Source of the DNA: Acetobacteraceae bacterium
GTDB taxonomy: Bacteria > Pseudomonadota > Alphaproteobacteria > Acetobacterales > Acetobacteraceae
Reading direction: 5' to 3'
Assembly: GCA_019750475.1 (NCBI GenBank)
Contig: JAIEOO010000115.1
Span: 1-35,565, forward strand
DNA: 35,565 bases
Numbering within the stretch: position 1 is the stretch's first letter; the number at the start of each line of letters is the position of its first letter. Of this stretch, positions 13,913 through 20,706 are shown in pieces. A model generated the notes under the pieces. The model saw only the letters and a program-made list of their open reading frames with translations, searched no databases and was not told the DNA's origin. Both the position numbers and the translations under genes were made by a program.

Positions 13913-14347
13913 ATGCTCCGTCCGCTCACCCTCGCCGCGATGCTCCTCGCGGCGCCCGCCTTCGCCCAGCCGCAGGTCGTCGCCACGCGCGACGCGCCCG
14001 AGGCGATCGGCCCCTACAGCCAGGCGATCCGCGTCGGCAACACGCTCTACCTCGCGGGCCAGATCGCGCTCGATCCCGCGACCAACCAGATGATCGCCGA
14101 CCGCTCGATCGAGGCCGAGACGCGCCGCGTCCTCGACAACCTCAAGGCGGTGGTGGAGGCCGCCGGCTTCCGCATGAGCGACATCGTCTCCACCACCGTC
14201 TTCATGGCCGACCTCAACGAGTTCGGGCGGATGAACGCGGTCTACGCCACCTACTTCCCGACCAACCCGCCGGCGCGCGCGACGGTGCAGGCCGCCCGCC
14301 TGCCGCGCGACGTGCGCGTGGAGATCGCGGCCATCGCCGCGCGCTGA
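13913..14347 (+). CDS. RidA-family protein with signal peptide
   Basis: A 144-aa protein. Residues 1-18 (MLRPLTLAAMLLAAPAFA) form a cleavable signal peptide ending AFA before Gln19, so the protein should be periplasmic. The mature part is a full RidA/YjgF domain with the conserved arginine R122 (PPARATV) and glutamate E137 (RVEIAAIA) used for deaminating enamine/imine intermediates. Cytoplasmic RidA protects PLP enzymes from 2-aminoacrylate; a periplasmic version must act on something else. A strong ribosome binding site (AGAGGAGG) sits upstream. The gene stands alone between the ligase and aldolase genes on the same strand. Confidence 0.88.
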   Translation: MLRPLTLAAMLLAAPAFAQPQVVATRDAPEAIGPYSQAIRVGNTLYLAGQIALDPATNQMIADRSIEAETRRVLDNLKAVVEAAGFRMSDIVSTTVFMADLNEFGRMNAVYATYFPTNPPARATVQAARLPRDVRVEIAAIAAR

Positions 14348-15207: not shown

Positions 15208-15268
15208 TCCAGGGGCTCCGCCCCTGGACCCCGGCAGGAACCTCAGGTTCCTGCACCTCCGGTTTTTT
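15208..15268 (+). terminator. Tandem hairpins and T-run after the aldolase gene
   Basis: Two perfect stems follow the aldolase stop. The first pairs 15208-15216 with 15220-15228 (TCCAGGGGC / GCCCCTGGA, loop of three). The second pairs 15234-15242 with 15246-15254 (GCAGGAACC / GGTTCCTGC, loop TCA). A run of six T follows at 15263-15268. The first stem resembles palindromic units I recall from intergenic DNA of Acetobacteraceae. The pair probably ends transcription, though the T-run is nine bases from the second stem. Confidence 0.55.
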
Positions 15269-15362: not shown

Positions 15363-15644
15363 ATGCCCCGCCGCAGCCGCACCACCTGGATCCTCAAGAT
15401 CTCGCGCAGCAACCAGGTGACCATCCCGGCGGCCGTCATCGCGCGGTTCGGCCGCCCCACGCACCTGGAACTGTTTCACAACGACGAAATGATGGGCCTC
15501 TTCCCGTGCACCGTCATGACCTATGAGGAACAGGCGAAGCAGGCCGGGATCCCCGACGTCGTCCTGAACGAGGCCCGCCGCATCCTGCGCGAGCGCGCGG
15601 CGCAAGCCGCCACCCCACCACGAGGGCGCAGCTCTCCCGCCTGA
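15363..15644 (+). CDS. AbrB/MazE/SpoVT-type DNA-binding protein
   Basis: A 93-aa protein. Residues 9-30 (WILKISRSNQVTIPAAVIAR) match the swapped-hairpin AbrB fold, in which a Lys/Arg-Gln-Val-Thr-Ile-Pro core contacts DNA as a dimer. The C-terminal half is helical and charged, with a basic Pro-rich tail. The ribosome binding site AGGAG is six bases before ATG 15363. The gene lies 94 bases upstream of a restriction-modification enzyme on the same strand, with no toxin gene beside it, so a controller of that enzyme is more likely than a classic antitoxin. The control role is inferred. Confidence 0.8.
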   Translation: MPRRSRTTWILKISRSNQVTIPAAVIARFGRPTHLELFHNDEMMGLFPCTVMTYEEQAKQAGIPDVVLNEARRILRERAAQAATPPRGRSSPA

Positions 15645-15653
15645 CTTCCTTCC

Positions 15654-15659
15654 TATAAT
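15654..15659 (+). promoter_or_regulatory. Perfect -10 hexamer before the type IIL enzyme gene
   Basis: TATAAT at 15654-15659, 79 bases before ATG 15739, is a rare perfect -10 element in such GC-rich DNA. I see no good -35 hexamer at 17 bases, so the promoter may need an activator. This gives the enzyme gene a possible promoter separate from the AbrB-like gene. Confidence 0.35.
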
Positions 15660-15738
15660 CCAGCGGGAAGCCGGAACGCAAGCGAAATGCATTGCGCCTT
15701 GCGGAACGCCCGCCCAAGCCGTCAAGATTCCTGCCCGC

Positions 15739-18693
15739 ATGACGCCCGAAGCCTTCATCGCCAAGTGGCGCGCCAACACCCGGCCCGAGCGCGCCTGTTA
15801 TGTCGAGCATTTCAACGACCTCTGCGCCCTTCTCGGCGAACCCACGCCGAACGAAGCCGACCCGGACGGGCGGGACTACGCCTTCGAGAAAGGGGCGACC
15901 AAGATCACGGGCGGCCGCGGCTGGGCCGATGTCTGGCGCCGCAACCGCTTCGCCAAGGAATACAAGAAGAAGGGCACCGAGCTGCGCAAGCACTTCGGGC
16001 AGCTCCAGTCCTACGCCATCGTCCTCGACAATCCGCCGCTGCTCGCGTTGTGCGACACCGAACGCTGGCTCATCCGCACCAACTGGACCAACACCGTCAG
16101 CGAGGAGATCGAACTTCACCTCGATGACCTCGTGCGGCCCGATGCGCGGCAGCGGCTTCGCGCCATGCTGGCCGAGCCCGAGCTGCTTCGCCCCGCCAAG
16201 ACGCGGGAGAAGCTGACCGAGGAAGCCGCCGCCGAACTCGCCGAACTCGCGCAGCGCCTTCGGGCGCGCGGGCATGACGCGCAGGCCGTCGCGCACTTCG
16301 TCAACCGCCTTGTCTTCTGCTTCTTCGCCGACAGCGTCGGGCTCATGCCGCCGGGGCTGCTCCGCAAGCTGCTGGATGCCGGCAGCCGCGCCCCGGACCA
16401 GTTCGAGGCCTTCTGCCGCCAGCTCTTCGCCGCGGCGAGCAAGCCCCAGGGCGCCGTCGGCTTCGACCTCGTTCCCTGGTTCAATGGCGGCCTGTTCGAT
16501 TCCGACGCGGCGCTGCCGCTCGTCCCCGCGGATATCCGCCTGCTCAACCGCCTGTCGGAACCTTCCTGGTCCGACATGGACCCGACGATCTTCGGGACCC
16601 TGTTCGAGCGCGGGCTGGACCCCGACAAGCGCGGCCAACTCGGCGCCCACTACACCGACCGCGACAAGATCATGCGGATCGTGGAGCCGGTGGTCGCCCG
16701 GCCTTGGGCGCGGCGCTGGGACGAGACGCGCGCCCGCATCGAGACGCTGATGGAGCGCCGGGCGCCGTTGCTCGCCGCTGATGCCGAAGCCGCCGCCGCC
16801 GAGATGGCCCGCCGCGCTGGCAGCGCCGCGATGCTGCCGGCCGCCGAGCGCAAGCGTCTCAAGGCGCAGGCCGACGCCCGCGCCCGGCAGGAGCGCGAGC
16901 TTCTCGCCCAGGCCGAGGGCGAGCTGACCCGCTTCCTCGAATCGCTGCGCGGCTATCGCGTGCTCGACCCCGCCTGCGGCAGCGGAAACTTCCTCTACCT
17001 CGCGCTGATGGCGCTGAAGGATGTGGAGCACCGCGCCATCATCGAGGCCCATGCCCTTGGCCTCGCCAATCGCCAGCGGGAGGTGGGGCCGGAATGCGTG
17101 CTGGGGCTGGAGATCGCGCCCTACGCCGCGGAACTCGCCCGCGTCTCCGTCTGGATCGGCGCGATCCAGTGGGCCGTGCGCAACAGCCAGCCCGTGCCCA
17201 TGGACCCGGTGCTGCGTCCGCTGGACCACATCGCCTGCCGCGACGCGCTGCTCGACGCGGACGGCAATCCTGCCGCTTGGCCCGAGGCCGACGCCATCAT
17301 CGGCAACCCGCCCTTTATTGGCGGCAAGGGAATGCTTCGCGCGCTGGGCGAGGATTACGTGACGAGGCTCAGGAGAGCGTATGCGGGGCACGTGCCGGGC
17401 GGCGCGGACTTCGTCTGCTACTGGTTCGAACGTGCGCGCGAGGCATTGGGTGGACGCGCGGAACGTGCAGGCTTGGTCGCCACCAACTCGATACGCGGTG
17501 GGTTGAACCGGCAGGTTCTGAGGCAAATCATCGATACATGTCGGGTTTTCGAAGCCTATGGTGACGAGCCCTGGACATTGGATGGGGCCGCCGTGCGGGT
17601 TTCCATTGTTTGCTTCGGTAGATCGGACGCAGGCGATCCGCTGGTTGTCGATGGATCACCCGCCGCGTTCGTCAACGCGGACCTCACGGCCGACAGGGCG
17701 GATCTCACGCAAGCGGCCCGACAAGCAGAGAACGCAAATGTCGCGTTCATCGGAGTTCAGCTAACGGGGCGCTTCGACATTCCACGCAGCAAAGCCGCCG
17801 AGTGGATATCTGAGCCCACGCATCCTACCGGAGTTACCAATGCCGAAGTGCTCAAGCCGTGGTGGAACGGCATCGATGTAACTTCGCGGAATCGCGATAT
17901 GTGGTGCGTTGACTTTGGGTTGTCTCGCTCCGAGGCCGATGCCGCAGCATTCATTCAACCCTACGCTCACATCGCAAAGGTGGTCAGGCCTGAGCGTGCA
18001 ACGAACAAGGTTCGTGCGCTTCGAGAGTTATGGTGGCGGCATTGGTGCCCCCGGCCGGAACTGATGCAGCGCTTAACCACGCTGCGGCGTGCCATCGTCA
18101 GCCCGGAGGTGTCGAAACACCGGCTCTTCGCTTGGCTACCGGCGGGATACGGCGCGGACAAGAACCTCATCGTGATCGTCCGCGCAGACGACGAGACATT
18201 CGGCATTCTGCATAGCCGCTTCCACGAAGCCTGGGCGCTTAGGCTGGGTACTTCGTTGGAGGATAGGCCTCGCTATACGCCGACCAGCGCGTTCGCGACC
18301 TTCCCCTTCCCCGAGGGCCTCACCCCCGACCTCCCGCCCGAAGGCGCCGCCACCCGCAACCCGGCCGCGCCGCGCATCGCCGCCGTCGCCCGCGCCCTGC
18401 ACGAAGCCCGCGAACGCTGGCTGAACCCGCCCGAATGGGTGGAGGAAGTGCCCGACCTCCTGCCGCACCTGCCGCTCCGGAAGATCCCGCGGGACGCCGA
18501 ATGCGCCCGCCGCCTCAAGGCCCGCACCCTCACCAACCTCTACAACACGCGCGGCAAGCCCGAAGGCGCCTGGCTCGACGCGCTCCACGCCGAACTCGAT
18601 GCCGCGGTGGCCGCCGCTTATGGCTGGCCCGCAGACATCCCGACCGAGGATGCGCTGTCCAGGCTGCTCACCCTCAACCAGGCCCGCGCATGA
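15739..18693 (+). CDS. MmeI-like type IIL restriction-modification enzyme
   Basis: A 984-aa single-chain enzyme that should both methylate and cut DNA. The N-terminal nuclease has D64, E74 and K76, the same D-X9-E-X-K spacing described for MmeI, within GWADVW and FAKEYKKKG. A helical spacer follows (about 150-400). The methyltransferase has motif I DPACGSGNF (D410) and motif IV NPPF (N523-F526), typical of gamma-class adenine methyltransferases. Residues of about 600-850 form the target recognition part, then a C-terminal helical tail. No catalytic residue is visibly missing. GC falls to 50-55% in the recognition part against 73-77% on both sides. The stop overlaps the next gene by four bases. 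Such enzymes methylate one strand and cut about 20 bases away. Confidence 0.9.
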   Translation: MTPEAFIAKWRANTRPERACYVEHFNDLCALLGEPTPNEADPDGRDYAFEKGATKITGGRGWADVWRRNRFAKEYKKKGTELRKHFGQLQSYAIVLDNPPLLALCDTERWLIRTNWTNTVSEEIELHLDDLVRPDARQRLRAMLAEPELLRPAKTREKLTEEAAAELAELAQRLRARGHDAQAVAHFVNRLVFCFFADSVGLMPPGLLRKLLDAGSRAPDQFEAFCRQLFAAASKPQGAVGFDLVPWFNGGLFDSDAALPLVPADIRLLNRLSEPSWSDMDPTIFGTLFERGLDPDKRGQLGAHYTDRDKIMRIVEPVVARPWARRWDETRARIETLMERRAPLLAADAEAAAAEMARRAGSAAMLPAAERKRLKAQADARARQERELLAQAEGELTRFLESLRGYRVLDPACGSGNFLYLALMALKDVEHRAIIEAHALGLANRQREVGPECVLGLEIAPYAAELARVSVWIGAIQWAVRNSQPVPMDPVLRPLDHIACRDALLDADGNPAAWPEADAIIGNPPFIGGKGMLRALGEDYVTRLRRAYAGHVPGGADFVCYWFERAREALGGRAERAGLVATNSIRGGLNRQVLRQIIDTCRVFEAYGDEPWTLDGAAVRVSIVCFGRSDAGDPLVVDGSPAAFVNADLTADRADLTQAARQAENANVAFIGVQLTGRFDIPRSKAAEWISEPTHPTGVTNAEVLKPWWNGIDVTSRNRDMWCVDFGLSRSEADAAAFIQPYAHIAKVVRPERATNKVRALRELWWRHWCPRPELMQRLTTLRRAIVSPEVSKHRLFAWLPAGYGADKNLIVIVRADDETFGILHSRFHEAWALRLGTSLEDRPRYTPTSAFATFPFPEGLTPDLPPEGAATRNPAAPRIAAVARALHEARERWLNPPEWVEEVPDLLPHLPLRKIPRDAECARRLKARTLTNLYNTRGKPEGAWLDALHAELDAAVAAAYGWPADIPTEDALSRLLTLNQARA

Positions 18694-19580
18694 CCTACGC
18701 TTCCCTCGTCGTCCCCCACGCCGAAGAAGGCGGTCATGGCTGGCACTGGGAACCCTTCACGGACGACATCCACGGCCAGCTTCCGGTCTGGATCACCGAG
18801 GTGGTCGAGGGCGGCGTCGTCGCCGTCCGGCACCCGATGCTGGACCGCTGGCGCCTCCCTCTGCCCGGAGGCGCCCCGCGCGCAGTCGCGCTGCTGCGAA
18901 CCGACACGGACATCGGCCTGTGCGCGATCATCGAAATCGCGGAGGACAGCAACAATCTCGCCTCGTTGTTCCCCTTTGTCGGGCGTGGCGTGCAGACCAC
19001 GGCCACGCCTCGCGAAATCCGCCTCCTGGCCGGGGCCAACGAGGCGATCCTGACGCTGGAGGTGGGCGGCGCGCTCGTCACGGCCTTCGATACCTCCTGG
19101 GCCGACGCGCGCACGGTCTATGCGCCGGGCCGCGCCGTCGAGGTGCTGCTGTCCGGGCTCGCGCTGGAGCTTCGGCCCGCCCTGCCGGAGACCGTCGAAG
19201 TCGCACTTCCGGACAACCTGCCCGAAGGCCTGCCGGGCGGCCGCCGCCACGTCCGTCTCGACACTGGCGCTTGGATCCTGCCCCTTGCGGACGGCACGGC
19301 CGATCACGCTCAGGTGCAGGGCCTTGTGCGCCGCGTGGAGGTCCTCCGGCCCGTCCTTGGCCGACCCGCTTGGTTGCTGCGCGTCGCGGCGCTGCGGCCT
19401 CTCGGCGCCGATGAAGGCGAGGAGCATTGCCTCGACCTCCTCGTGACGGACCGCGCCTGGCACGACGTGAAGCCCCCGACCCCAGGCCAGACGGTCCAGG
19501 GCATCGCCTGGCTGCAATGCCGCATCTGGGGCGTCACCGCCGACTTTCCCGAGGATCAGCGCGGCGGACCGGCGCCGTAG
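18690..19580 (+). CDS. Unknown protein coupled to the type IIL enzyme
   Basis: A 296-aa protein whose ATG at 18690 overlaps the restriction-modification stop (ATGA). I recognise no family. It has no signal peptide or membrane segment. The make-up suggests mostly beta structure: short alternating hydrophobic strands (LPVWITEVVEGGVVAVRHP, AILTLEVGGALVTAFDTSWA, WLLRVAALRPLG) and a late GQTVQGIAWLQCRIWG segment that could be an OB-like strand pair. Because it is translated with the enzyme it is likely a partner, a modulator or a second effector of the defence module. It ends three bases before the stop of the convergent receptor gene. Confidence 0.75.
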   Translation: MTYASLVVPHAEEGGHGWHWEPFTDDIHGQLPVWITEVVEGGVVAVRHPMLDRWRLPLPGGAPRAVALLRTDTDIGLCAIIEIAEDSNNLASLFPFVGRGVQTTATPREIRLLAGANEAILTLEVGGALVTAFDTSWADARTVYAPGRAVEVLLSGLALELRPALPETVEVALPDNLPEGLPGGRRHVRLDTGAWILPLADGTADHAQVQGLVRRVEVLRPVLGRPAWLLRVAALRPLGADEGEEHCLDLLVTDRAWHDVKPPTPGQTVQGIAWLQCRIWGVTADFPEDQRGGPAP

Positions 19581-19583
19581 CGC

Positions 19584-20579
19584 CTACTCCATCCGCACAT
19601 TGGCGAAGCGCACGATCTCCGCGTGCCGCCGCAGCTCCGCCGTCAGGTGCTGCGTCAGCCGCTCCGGCGGGCCGCCCATCACGTCGAGGCCCTGCGCCTC
19701 GAAGCGCGCGCGGCTCTCGGGCTCGGCCAGGATCTCGTTGAACAGCCGGTTCATCGCCTGGATGATCGGCTGCGGCGTGCCGCGCGGGGCCAGCAGCCCG
19801 AACCACGTCCCGAACTCCAGCCCCGGCATCCCCAGCTCCGCCGTCGTCGGCACGTCGGGCAGGACGGGGCTGCGCCGGTCGGACAGCACGGCGATCGCGC
19901 GCGCCCGCCCCTCCCGCACCTGCGGCGCGGAGCCGGTGATCAGGTTGAACATCAGCTGGATGCGGCCGGTGAACAGGTCCGCCACCGCCTGCGACAGGCC
20001 ATTGTAGGGCACATGGGTCATCTCGGCGCCCGTCGCCTGGCTGTAGAGCGCGGCCGCCATGTGCATCGAGCTTCCGATGCCCGAGGACCCGTAGGAGAGC
20101 TGGCCCGGATGGGCGCGAACGTGGCGCGTGAACTCCTCGAGGCTGCGCGCCGGGAAATCGGGCGTCACGATCAGGATGTTCGGCACGTTGCCGATCAGGA
20201 TCACCGGCTCGAAGTCGCGCAGCGGGTCGAAGGGCAGGGAGGCGTACATGGCCGGGTTGGTCGCCAGCGTCCCGGCCCAGCTCCACAGGAAGGTATAGCC
20301 ATCGGCCGCGCTGCGGGCGGCGACGCCGGCGCCGACATTCCCGTTCGCCCCCGGCCGGTTGTCCACCACGCTCCGCTGCGGCAGCCGCTTGTCGAGCTCG
20401 GCCGCCATGATGCGCGCCAGCGTGTCGGCCGTGCCCGCCCCGCCCGCCGCCGGCAGCACCAGCCGGACGGGCCGCTCGGGCCAGCCCGGCACGGGTTGCG
20501 CCGGCTGGGCGAGCGCCGGCGCCACGCCCATCCCGGCGCCCATCGCGGCGGCCAGCAGGCGTCGGGTCGGGAAGGTCAT
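19584..20579 (-). CDS. Bug-family tripartite tricarboxylate transporter receptor
   Basis: A 331-aa periplasmic binding protein. The signal peptide (MTFPTRRLLAAAMGAGMGVA, cut after ALA) is followed by the family's WPERPVRLVLP start, an AGGAGTADTLAR loop and an N-RPGANGNVGAGVAA segment that binds carboxylates by water-mediated contacts. FDPLRDF and VPYNG motifs are also present. Bug proteins feed TctAB-type membrane permeases or act as orphans that sense carboxylic acids. No permease genes are here. I chose ATG 20579; upstream in-frame sequence to 20693 has no signal-peptide character. It is divergent from the flavoprotein gene. Confidence 0.9.
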   Translation of the reverse strand: MTFPTRRLLAAAMGAGMGVAPALAQPAQPVPGWPERPVRLVLPAAGGAGTADTLARIMAAELDKRLPQRSVVDNRPGANGNVGAGVAARSAADGYTFLWSWAGTLATNPAMYASLPFDPLRDFEPVILIGNVPNILIVTPDFPARSLEEFTRHVRAHPGQLSYGSSGIGSSMHMAAALYSQATGAEMTHVPYNGLSQAVADLFTGRIQLMFNLITGSAPQVREGRARAIAVLSDRRSPVLPDVPTTAELGMPGLEFGTWFGLLAPRGTPQPIIQAMNRLFNEILAEPESRARFEAQGLDVMGGPPERLTQHLTAELRRHAEIVRFANVRME

Positions 20580-20706
20580 GGACGGCACCTCGGGGACGAT
20601 GCCGGCAATCTGGGGGGTCGCCCCGGCGCGCTGCAAGGCTCGGCCGGACCGTCCCCGCGCGGCCATGGACAGGCGTGGCCGGCGGGCCGACATTCACGGC
20701 GGCCTC

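Follow-up and report, generated by a model that had tools for sequence, protein, structure and literature searches.

An MmeI-like type IIL restriction enzyme gene in an Acetobacteraceae genome and its overlapping neighbour from an unnamed protein family

Organization of the locus

The window, meaning the whole analysed stretch of 35,565 nucleotides from an Acetobacteraceae bacterium (GCA_019750475.1, contig JAIEOO010000115.1), contains three consecutive genes on one strand, designated here gene 1, gene 2, and gene 3 (Table 1). The frame of gene 3 is nested in a longer listed frame at 18435-19580, and its ATG shares four nucleotides with the stop codon of gene 2 (ATGA). The gene upstream of the locus encodes an HpcH/HpaI aldolase. 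The first-pass annotation had placed three same-strand genes between a pair of hairpins and a convergent metabolic gene, with the third gene overlapping the second, and all these points of layout were borne out.

Table 1. Coordinates of the features of the locus in the window.
Feature	Position	Strand	Description	Source
Double-hairpin element	15208-15262	.	Follows the aldolase gene; resembles a terminator, T run next	
Gene 1	15363-15644	+	93 aa, AbrB/MazE-like	ORF list
Gene 2	15739-18693	+	984 aa, MmeI-like type IIL enzyme	ORF list
Gene 3	18690-19580	+	296 aa, unnamed family	Read from sequence
TctC-type receptor gene	19584-20693	-	Convergent with gene 3	

The two hairpins were computed to fold with -35 kcal/mol (z -4.66), and none of 200 shuffles was equally stable. 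The 31-base core of this element is single-copy in its own genome when up to two mismatches are allowed, and stretches 91-98% similar to the double hairpin were found in seven genomes of the same genus (G596, G598, G599, G600, G604, G605, and G607), with 1-3 copies per genome among the matches listed; possibly, the element arrived with a foreign piece. The metabolic blocks flanking the locus were found apart in two genomes of the genus, G596 and G599, and the locus is therefore regarded as a composite place. Five of the six neighbouring frames of the window that were scanned had no match in the defence library. The sixth, a RidA-type (Ribonuc_L-PSP) protein at 13913-14347, hits the C-terminal portion of PD-T4-2_B from PADLOC; this probably reflects a shared domain and not a defence gene.

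The MmeI-like enzyme

Type IIL enzymes methylate one strand of their site and cut at a fixed distance from it. The product of gene 2 matches MmeI_N, MmeI_hel, MmeI_Mtase, and MmeI_TRD, all over the Pfam cut-offs, and its chain runs in the order nuclease, helical spacer, gamma-class methylase, and target recognition domain. The helical spacer (PF20465) scores 40.2 bits and the target recognition domain (PF20466) 31.6 bits, each against a cut-off of 27, the latter match covering residues 763-859 and profile positions 103-206 of 207. In the defence library the top match is the PADLOC type IIG restriction-methyltransferase model (6.4e-269). The D-X9-E-X-K nuclease motif (D64, E74, and K76) aligns with D70, E80, and K82 of MmeI (5hr4), the gamma-class methylase motifs DPACGSG and NPPF lie at 410 and 523, and H304 and W612 align with H314 and W570 of MmeI; the roles of these five MmeI residues are given in PMC4833311. 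The complete MmeI-like enzyme described previously, with the same nuclease residues and methylase motifs, was thus confirmed. As gene 2 is open and full-length, the enzyme is probably active, judging by its sequence.

In two 300-base blocks at 17539-18138 the G+C content of gene 2 falls to 0.61 and 0.59, versus 0.66-0.76 in the other eight blocks. The dip precedes the matched target recognition domain, reaches into its beginning, and would fit an exchanged segment.

The upstream AbrB/MazE-like gene

The AbrB-fold assignment of gene 1 was upheld as a resemblance and not at the level of curated profiles, since gene 1 scores 15.6 bits against PF04014 (AbrB/MazE; Pfam cut-off 24.7) and 12.6 bits against TIGR01439 (NCBIfam cut-off 28.3); by profile comparison the protein resembles AbrB/MazE under these cut-offs only. 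Of the 199 other family-sample genomes, 10 hold relatives with 25-44% identity, and for this reason gene 1 looks like a real gene. Further relatives were found in 9 other genomes of the same genus, one of which (G124) is counted in the family sample too.

An MmeI-like match accompanied none of the 10 fetched family stretches with gene 1 relatives. Within the genus the MmeI-like matches (1e-20) were confined to G600, where the match lies on another contig than the gene 1 relative, and to G608, where no gene 1 match was obtained. Read by eye, the relatives of gene 1 stand in varied settings, and gene 1 as a dedicated controller of the enzyme was rejected. One relative (L103) is followed by a gene pair resembling ParD/ParE.

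Upstream of small AbrB-like genes, direct repeats with an 8-bp period were observed, for example CTTACTAT CTTACGAT CTTACTAT. They precede the gene 1 relatives of L098-L100, L102-L104, L106, and L119-L126, while those of L101, L105, and L107 were excluded from the octamer test as unplaced by tblastn. Over these 15 loci and the window the mean self-similarity was 0.795 at period 8 versus 0.615-0.694 at periods 5-7 and 9-12, and the period-8 value was reached by 0-3 of 200 shuffles per locus. No clear 8-bp repeat array stands upstream of gene 1 in the window itself. The array before the 15 relatives looks like a self-operator, and because the tested relatives carry it, gene 1 most likely acts elsewhere.

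Neighbourhoods of the enzyme in relatives

MmeI-like matches of 1e-50 or better were obtained in 21 of the 200 genomes of the family sample, the window's own included. For 15 of the 20 others the gene 2 neighbourhood was fetched, with at least 2.5 kb of 3' flank in 14 loci and at least 1.2 kb of 5' flank in 13, and the remaining five genomes (G084, G185, G068, G096, and G014) were searched in short loci, which include roughly 1.5 kb of flank unless the contig ends sooner. Gene 3 was found beside none of the 15, either by tblastn or with a profile built from nine of its relatives; gene 1 was likewise found beside none of the 15, the lone tblastn match being a chance-level one inside an enzyme (22 residues, E 0.036). 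Neither gene was present in the five short loci, nor in the five fetched plasmid loci with MmeI-like relatives (5 of 25 records). In G600 of the same genus, all that remains of a close MmeI relative is a 64-aa piece (81%) located elsewhere, with neither gene 1 nor gene 3 in the 1.1 kb before or the 10.7 kb after it.

The first-pass annotation had proposed a fixed arrangement of an AbrB-like gene, an MmeI-like gene, and a 296-aa gene. These neighbourhood counts (0/15, 0/5, and 0/5), together with those of gene 1 relatives, led to the rejection of the three-gene module: the AbrB-like gene is unlinked from the enzyme in relatives (0/10 family stretches), and the gene 3 homologues found in the samples searched lie away from type IIL genes. 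The ATGA overlap was also rejected as proof of partnership, as the MmeI-like gene of L093 is overlapped at its stop (GTGA) by a YdjC-like gene in the same manner. A 330-aa gene following the MmeI-like gene of plasmid pAtK84c (L240) was considered as a gene 3 relative and discarded, since neither gene 3 profile matches in that locus.

Two MmeI-like genes of the set are of separate note. The gene of G088 (L087 4304-7155) is fragmented, contains an in-frame stop, and looks broken, and the gene on a Lichenicola cladoniae plasmid (L244 5858-8216) is annotated in two parts; downstream of it stand two genes for annotated TIR-domain proteins, separated by a hypothetical gene.

The family of the third gene

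Gene 3 had no match at E 1 in Pfam, NCBIfam, PADLOC, or PHROGs, and its relatives are distant (20-30% identity). In overlapping samples, and with the window's own genome included, gene 3 was found in 2 of 200 genomes of the family sample, 4 of 397 of the larger family sample, 4 of 398 of the phylum sample, and 3 of 385 of the class sample; a search of 147 relatives of G197 returned three genomes, all found previously. The profile revealed G197, G154, and G050 as the sole three other carriers in the window's family.

In Moraxellaceae a form of gene 3 is common: one scan with a Moraxellaceae query pair gave 237 tblastn-confirmed stretches, the best 80 of which all belong to Psychrobacter or Moraxella (L137-L216). 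The family is also present in Acinetobacter (L113), where the neighbours of the relative in one record include serC, lolD, and comEC, and the relative of L007 adjoins a PolyA_pol-family gene. The one Moraxellaceae member scanned (L009) had no Pfam model match. A profile of the window clade with Caballeronia aligned to that of 22 Moraxellaceae sequences by hhalign at full length (probability 98.4%, E 4.3e-15, 260 columns), and on this profile similarity gene 3 is assigned to an unnamed family with Moraxellaceae members.

Among plasmid and phage records the window protein gave one plasmid match and no phage match, and the members from G213, G197, and G050 gave no plasmid match. The Caballeronia relative matched its own record, four Acinetobacter records of the plasmid set, and two contigs filed as Acinetobacter phage; three of these plasmid-set records exceed 3.6 Mb and are therefore probably chromosomes. 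No relative of two gene 3 queries was detected in viral contigs.

When the PDB was searched by sequence with the profile of gene 3, two matches at E 0.5 were obtained, which is chance level. The structure model of the window protein is poor (pLDDT 42.6) and not usable; the Moraxellaceae form was modelled at pLDDT 67.7, with two beta-rich parts. No PDB entry matched the latter model at E 0.001 or better; the best weak match was 1h9m (ModG; 9.9e-3), and further weak matches were a mixture with many of SSB type, in which PriB and subunits of RNA polymerase also occurred. OB-type folds are frequent in this set. Because no match reaches E 0.001, the model of this distant relative gives only a hint that gene 3 may have an OB-like fold.

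The third gene beside restriction-modification genes

The gene 3 proteins of the window, G197, G154, and G050 form one clade in a tree of 12 sequences (local support 0.974). In G197 (L114 6572-9116) the gene 3 relative is followed after 97 nt by a fusion of N6_N4_Mtase and Mrr_cat, and then by Acyltransferase and Radical_SAM/UPF0004/TRAM genes, which places the pair in an ordinary gene setting. In G154 (L115 4817-8871) a convergent 1068-aa N6_Mtase/Eco57I type IIG-like enzyme ends 59 nt from the end of gene 3. In G050 the gene 3 relative is followed by a HIRAN protein and by a convergent type I specificity subunit near the contig end (9452). Together with the MmeI-like gene of the window, the four loci adjoin four different types of restriction-modification gene. 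The defence linkage of gene 3 that had been suggested earlier is thereby favoured by three relatives in the family, and its type IIL partner is not, the gene 3-MmeI pairing having been seen in one instance only.

A scan for frames with paired methylase motifs found a DNA methylase frame in three of the four loci, the G050 locus having the specificity gene and no such frame. As a positive control it detected 13 of the 15 MmeI loci, missing two cut by contig ends. No methylase frame was found in 964,156 control bases, among them the 10 gene 1 loci, the 6 genus loci (chosen for likeness to the window's flanks, one of them holding the G600 remnant), and 800,000 bases of 40 stretches at round coordinates from seven genomes. 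If the control count is raised by one, at least three methylase frames in 24 kb have a probability of about 2.5e-6, and two in 18 kb with the window excluded one of 1.7e-4, in a test that is post hoc and motif-based and whose control comes from a small number of genomes. Restriction genes tend to lie together in islands; for this reason and because the test is post hoc, the pairing of the gene 3 clade with restriction-modification genes is graded as a strong lead.

Outside the window's family a methylase motif was found near none of 7 and none of 80 gene 3 relatives, the two counts sharing one place (L009 = L137). The G154 enzyme has relatives in 13 viral loci (24-32% identity) and 2 plasmid loci, and gene 3 was found beside none of these 15, nor beside relatives of the G197 enzyme in 3 plasmid loci. 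In the two plasmid searches 2 of 13 and 3 of 12 records were fetched. As the partners differ and the relatives of these enzymes stand without gene 3, gene 3 seems to travel beside restriction-modification genes and to be tied to no single one.

Interpretation

The locus is best explained, with a probability of roughly 0.55, as a stand-alone type IIL enzyme with a co-translated accessory gene 3 and an independent upstream gene 1. By analogy with its family, gene 2 would be a self-sufficient single polypeptide that methylates adenine in its site and cuts at a distance if the site is unmodified. Gene 3 would probably be translated together with gene 2 by coupled translation at the ATGA overlap, as an accessory from a lineage that appears to have landed repeatedly beside unrelated restriction-modification types in this family, and its role would most likely be that of a nucleic-acid- or enzyme-binding helper adjusting restriction or the cost to the host. 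Gene 1 would be an independent AbrB/MazE-like gene, perhaps self-regulating, upstream by happenstance. In the four gene 3 loci, which are all the members of the clade found in the window's family and include a window chosen for its enzyme, the order, strand, and partner differ each time, and thus no fixed unit is seen.

A possible reading, which we hold as a minority view, is that of a plain stand-alone type IIL enzyme to which genes 1 and 3 are neighbours by chance, in an acquired patch bounded by two conserved blocks. It agrees with the examined relatives of gene 2, none of which retains either neighbour, with the separation of the flanking blocks in G596 and G599, and with the G600 remnant, near which both genes are absent; shared hotspots could also explain the pairing of gene 3. 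The three family relatives adjoining restriction-modification genes, with no such motif in the 964 kb control, argue against mere chance. It is somewhat unlikely that gene 3 is a member of a general housekeeping family of the Moraxellaceae kind, unconnected with defence and carried here by chance: the abundance of the Moraxellaceae form, its Psychrobacter and Moraxella distribution, the serC, lolD, comEC, and PolyA_pol-family neighbours, and the lack of methylase motifs in the 80 loci all suit a housekeeping gene, whereas in the window's family gene 3 does not resemble a core gene, being rare (4/397) and having a restriction-modification gene next to it in every case. A true three-gene defence module of an AbrB-type controller, a type IIL enzyme, and a gene 3 effector, to which the same strand, short gaps, and 4-nt overlap point, is largely refuted and highly improbable, as none of the examined gene 2 relatives occurs with gene 1 or gene 3 and MmeI-like matches are separate from gene 1 relatives in the family stretches and in the genus.

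If, under the preferred reading of an enzyme with an accessory gene 3, the pairing is real, it would represent a new accessory family that is independent of the type of restriction enzyme served. A step common to these systems, such as the handling of cut or single-stranded DNA or host protection, would then be implicated in place of site recognition, and a Moraxellaceae family whose scanned members have no Pfam match would gain a first handle. Otherwise, what stands here is an ordinary type IIL enzyme. A bolder extension, which we consider rather doubtful, is that the gene 3 clade is a general, interchangeable restriction-modification helper, a single small protein recruited repeatedly beside enzymes of unrelated mechanism (type IIL, type IIG-like, methylase-Mrr fusion, and type I) and co-translated with one of them here; it could be an OB-like nucleic-acid binder with two barrels and kinship to a housekeeping family.

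Comparison with known systems

The HIRAN and type I specificity genes of G050 are likewise neighbours of the gene 3 clade; however, they encode other proteins than the enzyme of the window, and their contig ends at 9452. The controller (C) proteins of type II systems are encoded by small helix-turn-helix DNA-binding genes upstream of the enzyme. Gene 1 is similarly small, putatively DNA-binding, and upstream of gene 2, but it is AbrB/MazE-like and absent beside the enzyme in relatives. With type IIG enzymes, BREX PglX, and DISARM DrmMI gene 2 shares the adenine methylase core, while the PglX and DrmMI models of PADLOC score lower on it than the best type IIG model, and, unlike in BREX and DISARM, five of the six scanned neighbours in the window have no defence match, the sixth being the RidA-type protein with its PD-T4-2_B end. 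The closest likeness is to MmeI (PDB 5hr4; PMC4833311), with which gene 2 has in common the domain order, the D64/E74/K76 nuclease residues, the DPACGSG and NPPF motifs, and the counterparts H304 and W612; it differs from MmeI in being only distantly similar in sequence (131 bits) and in the extra gene that overlaps it here.
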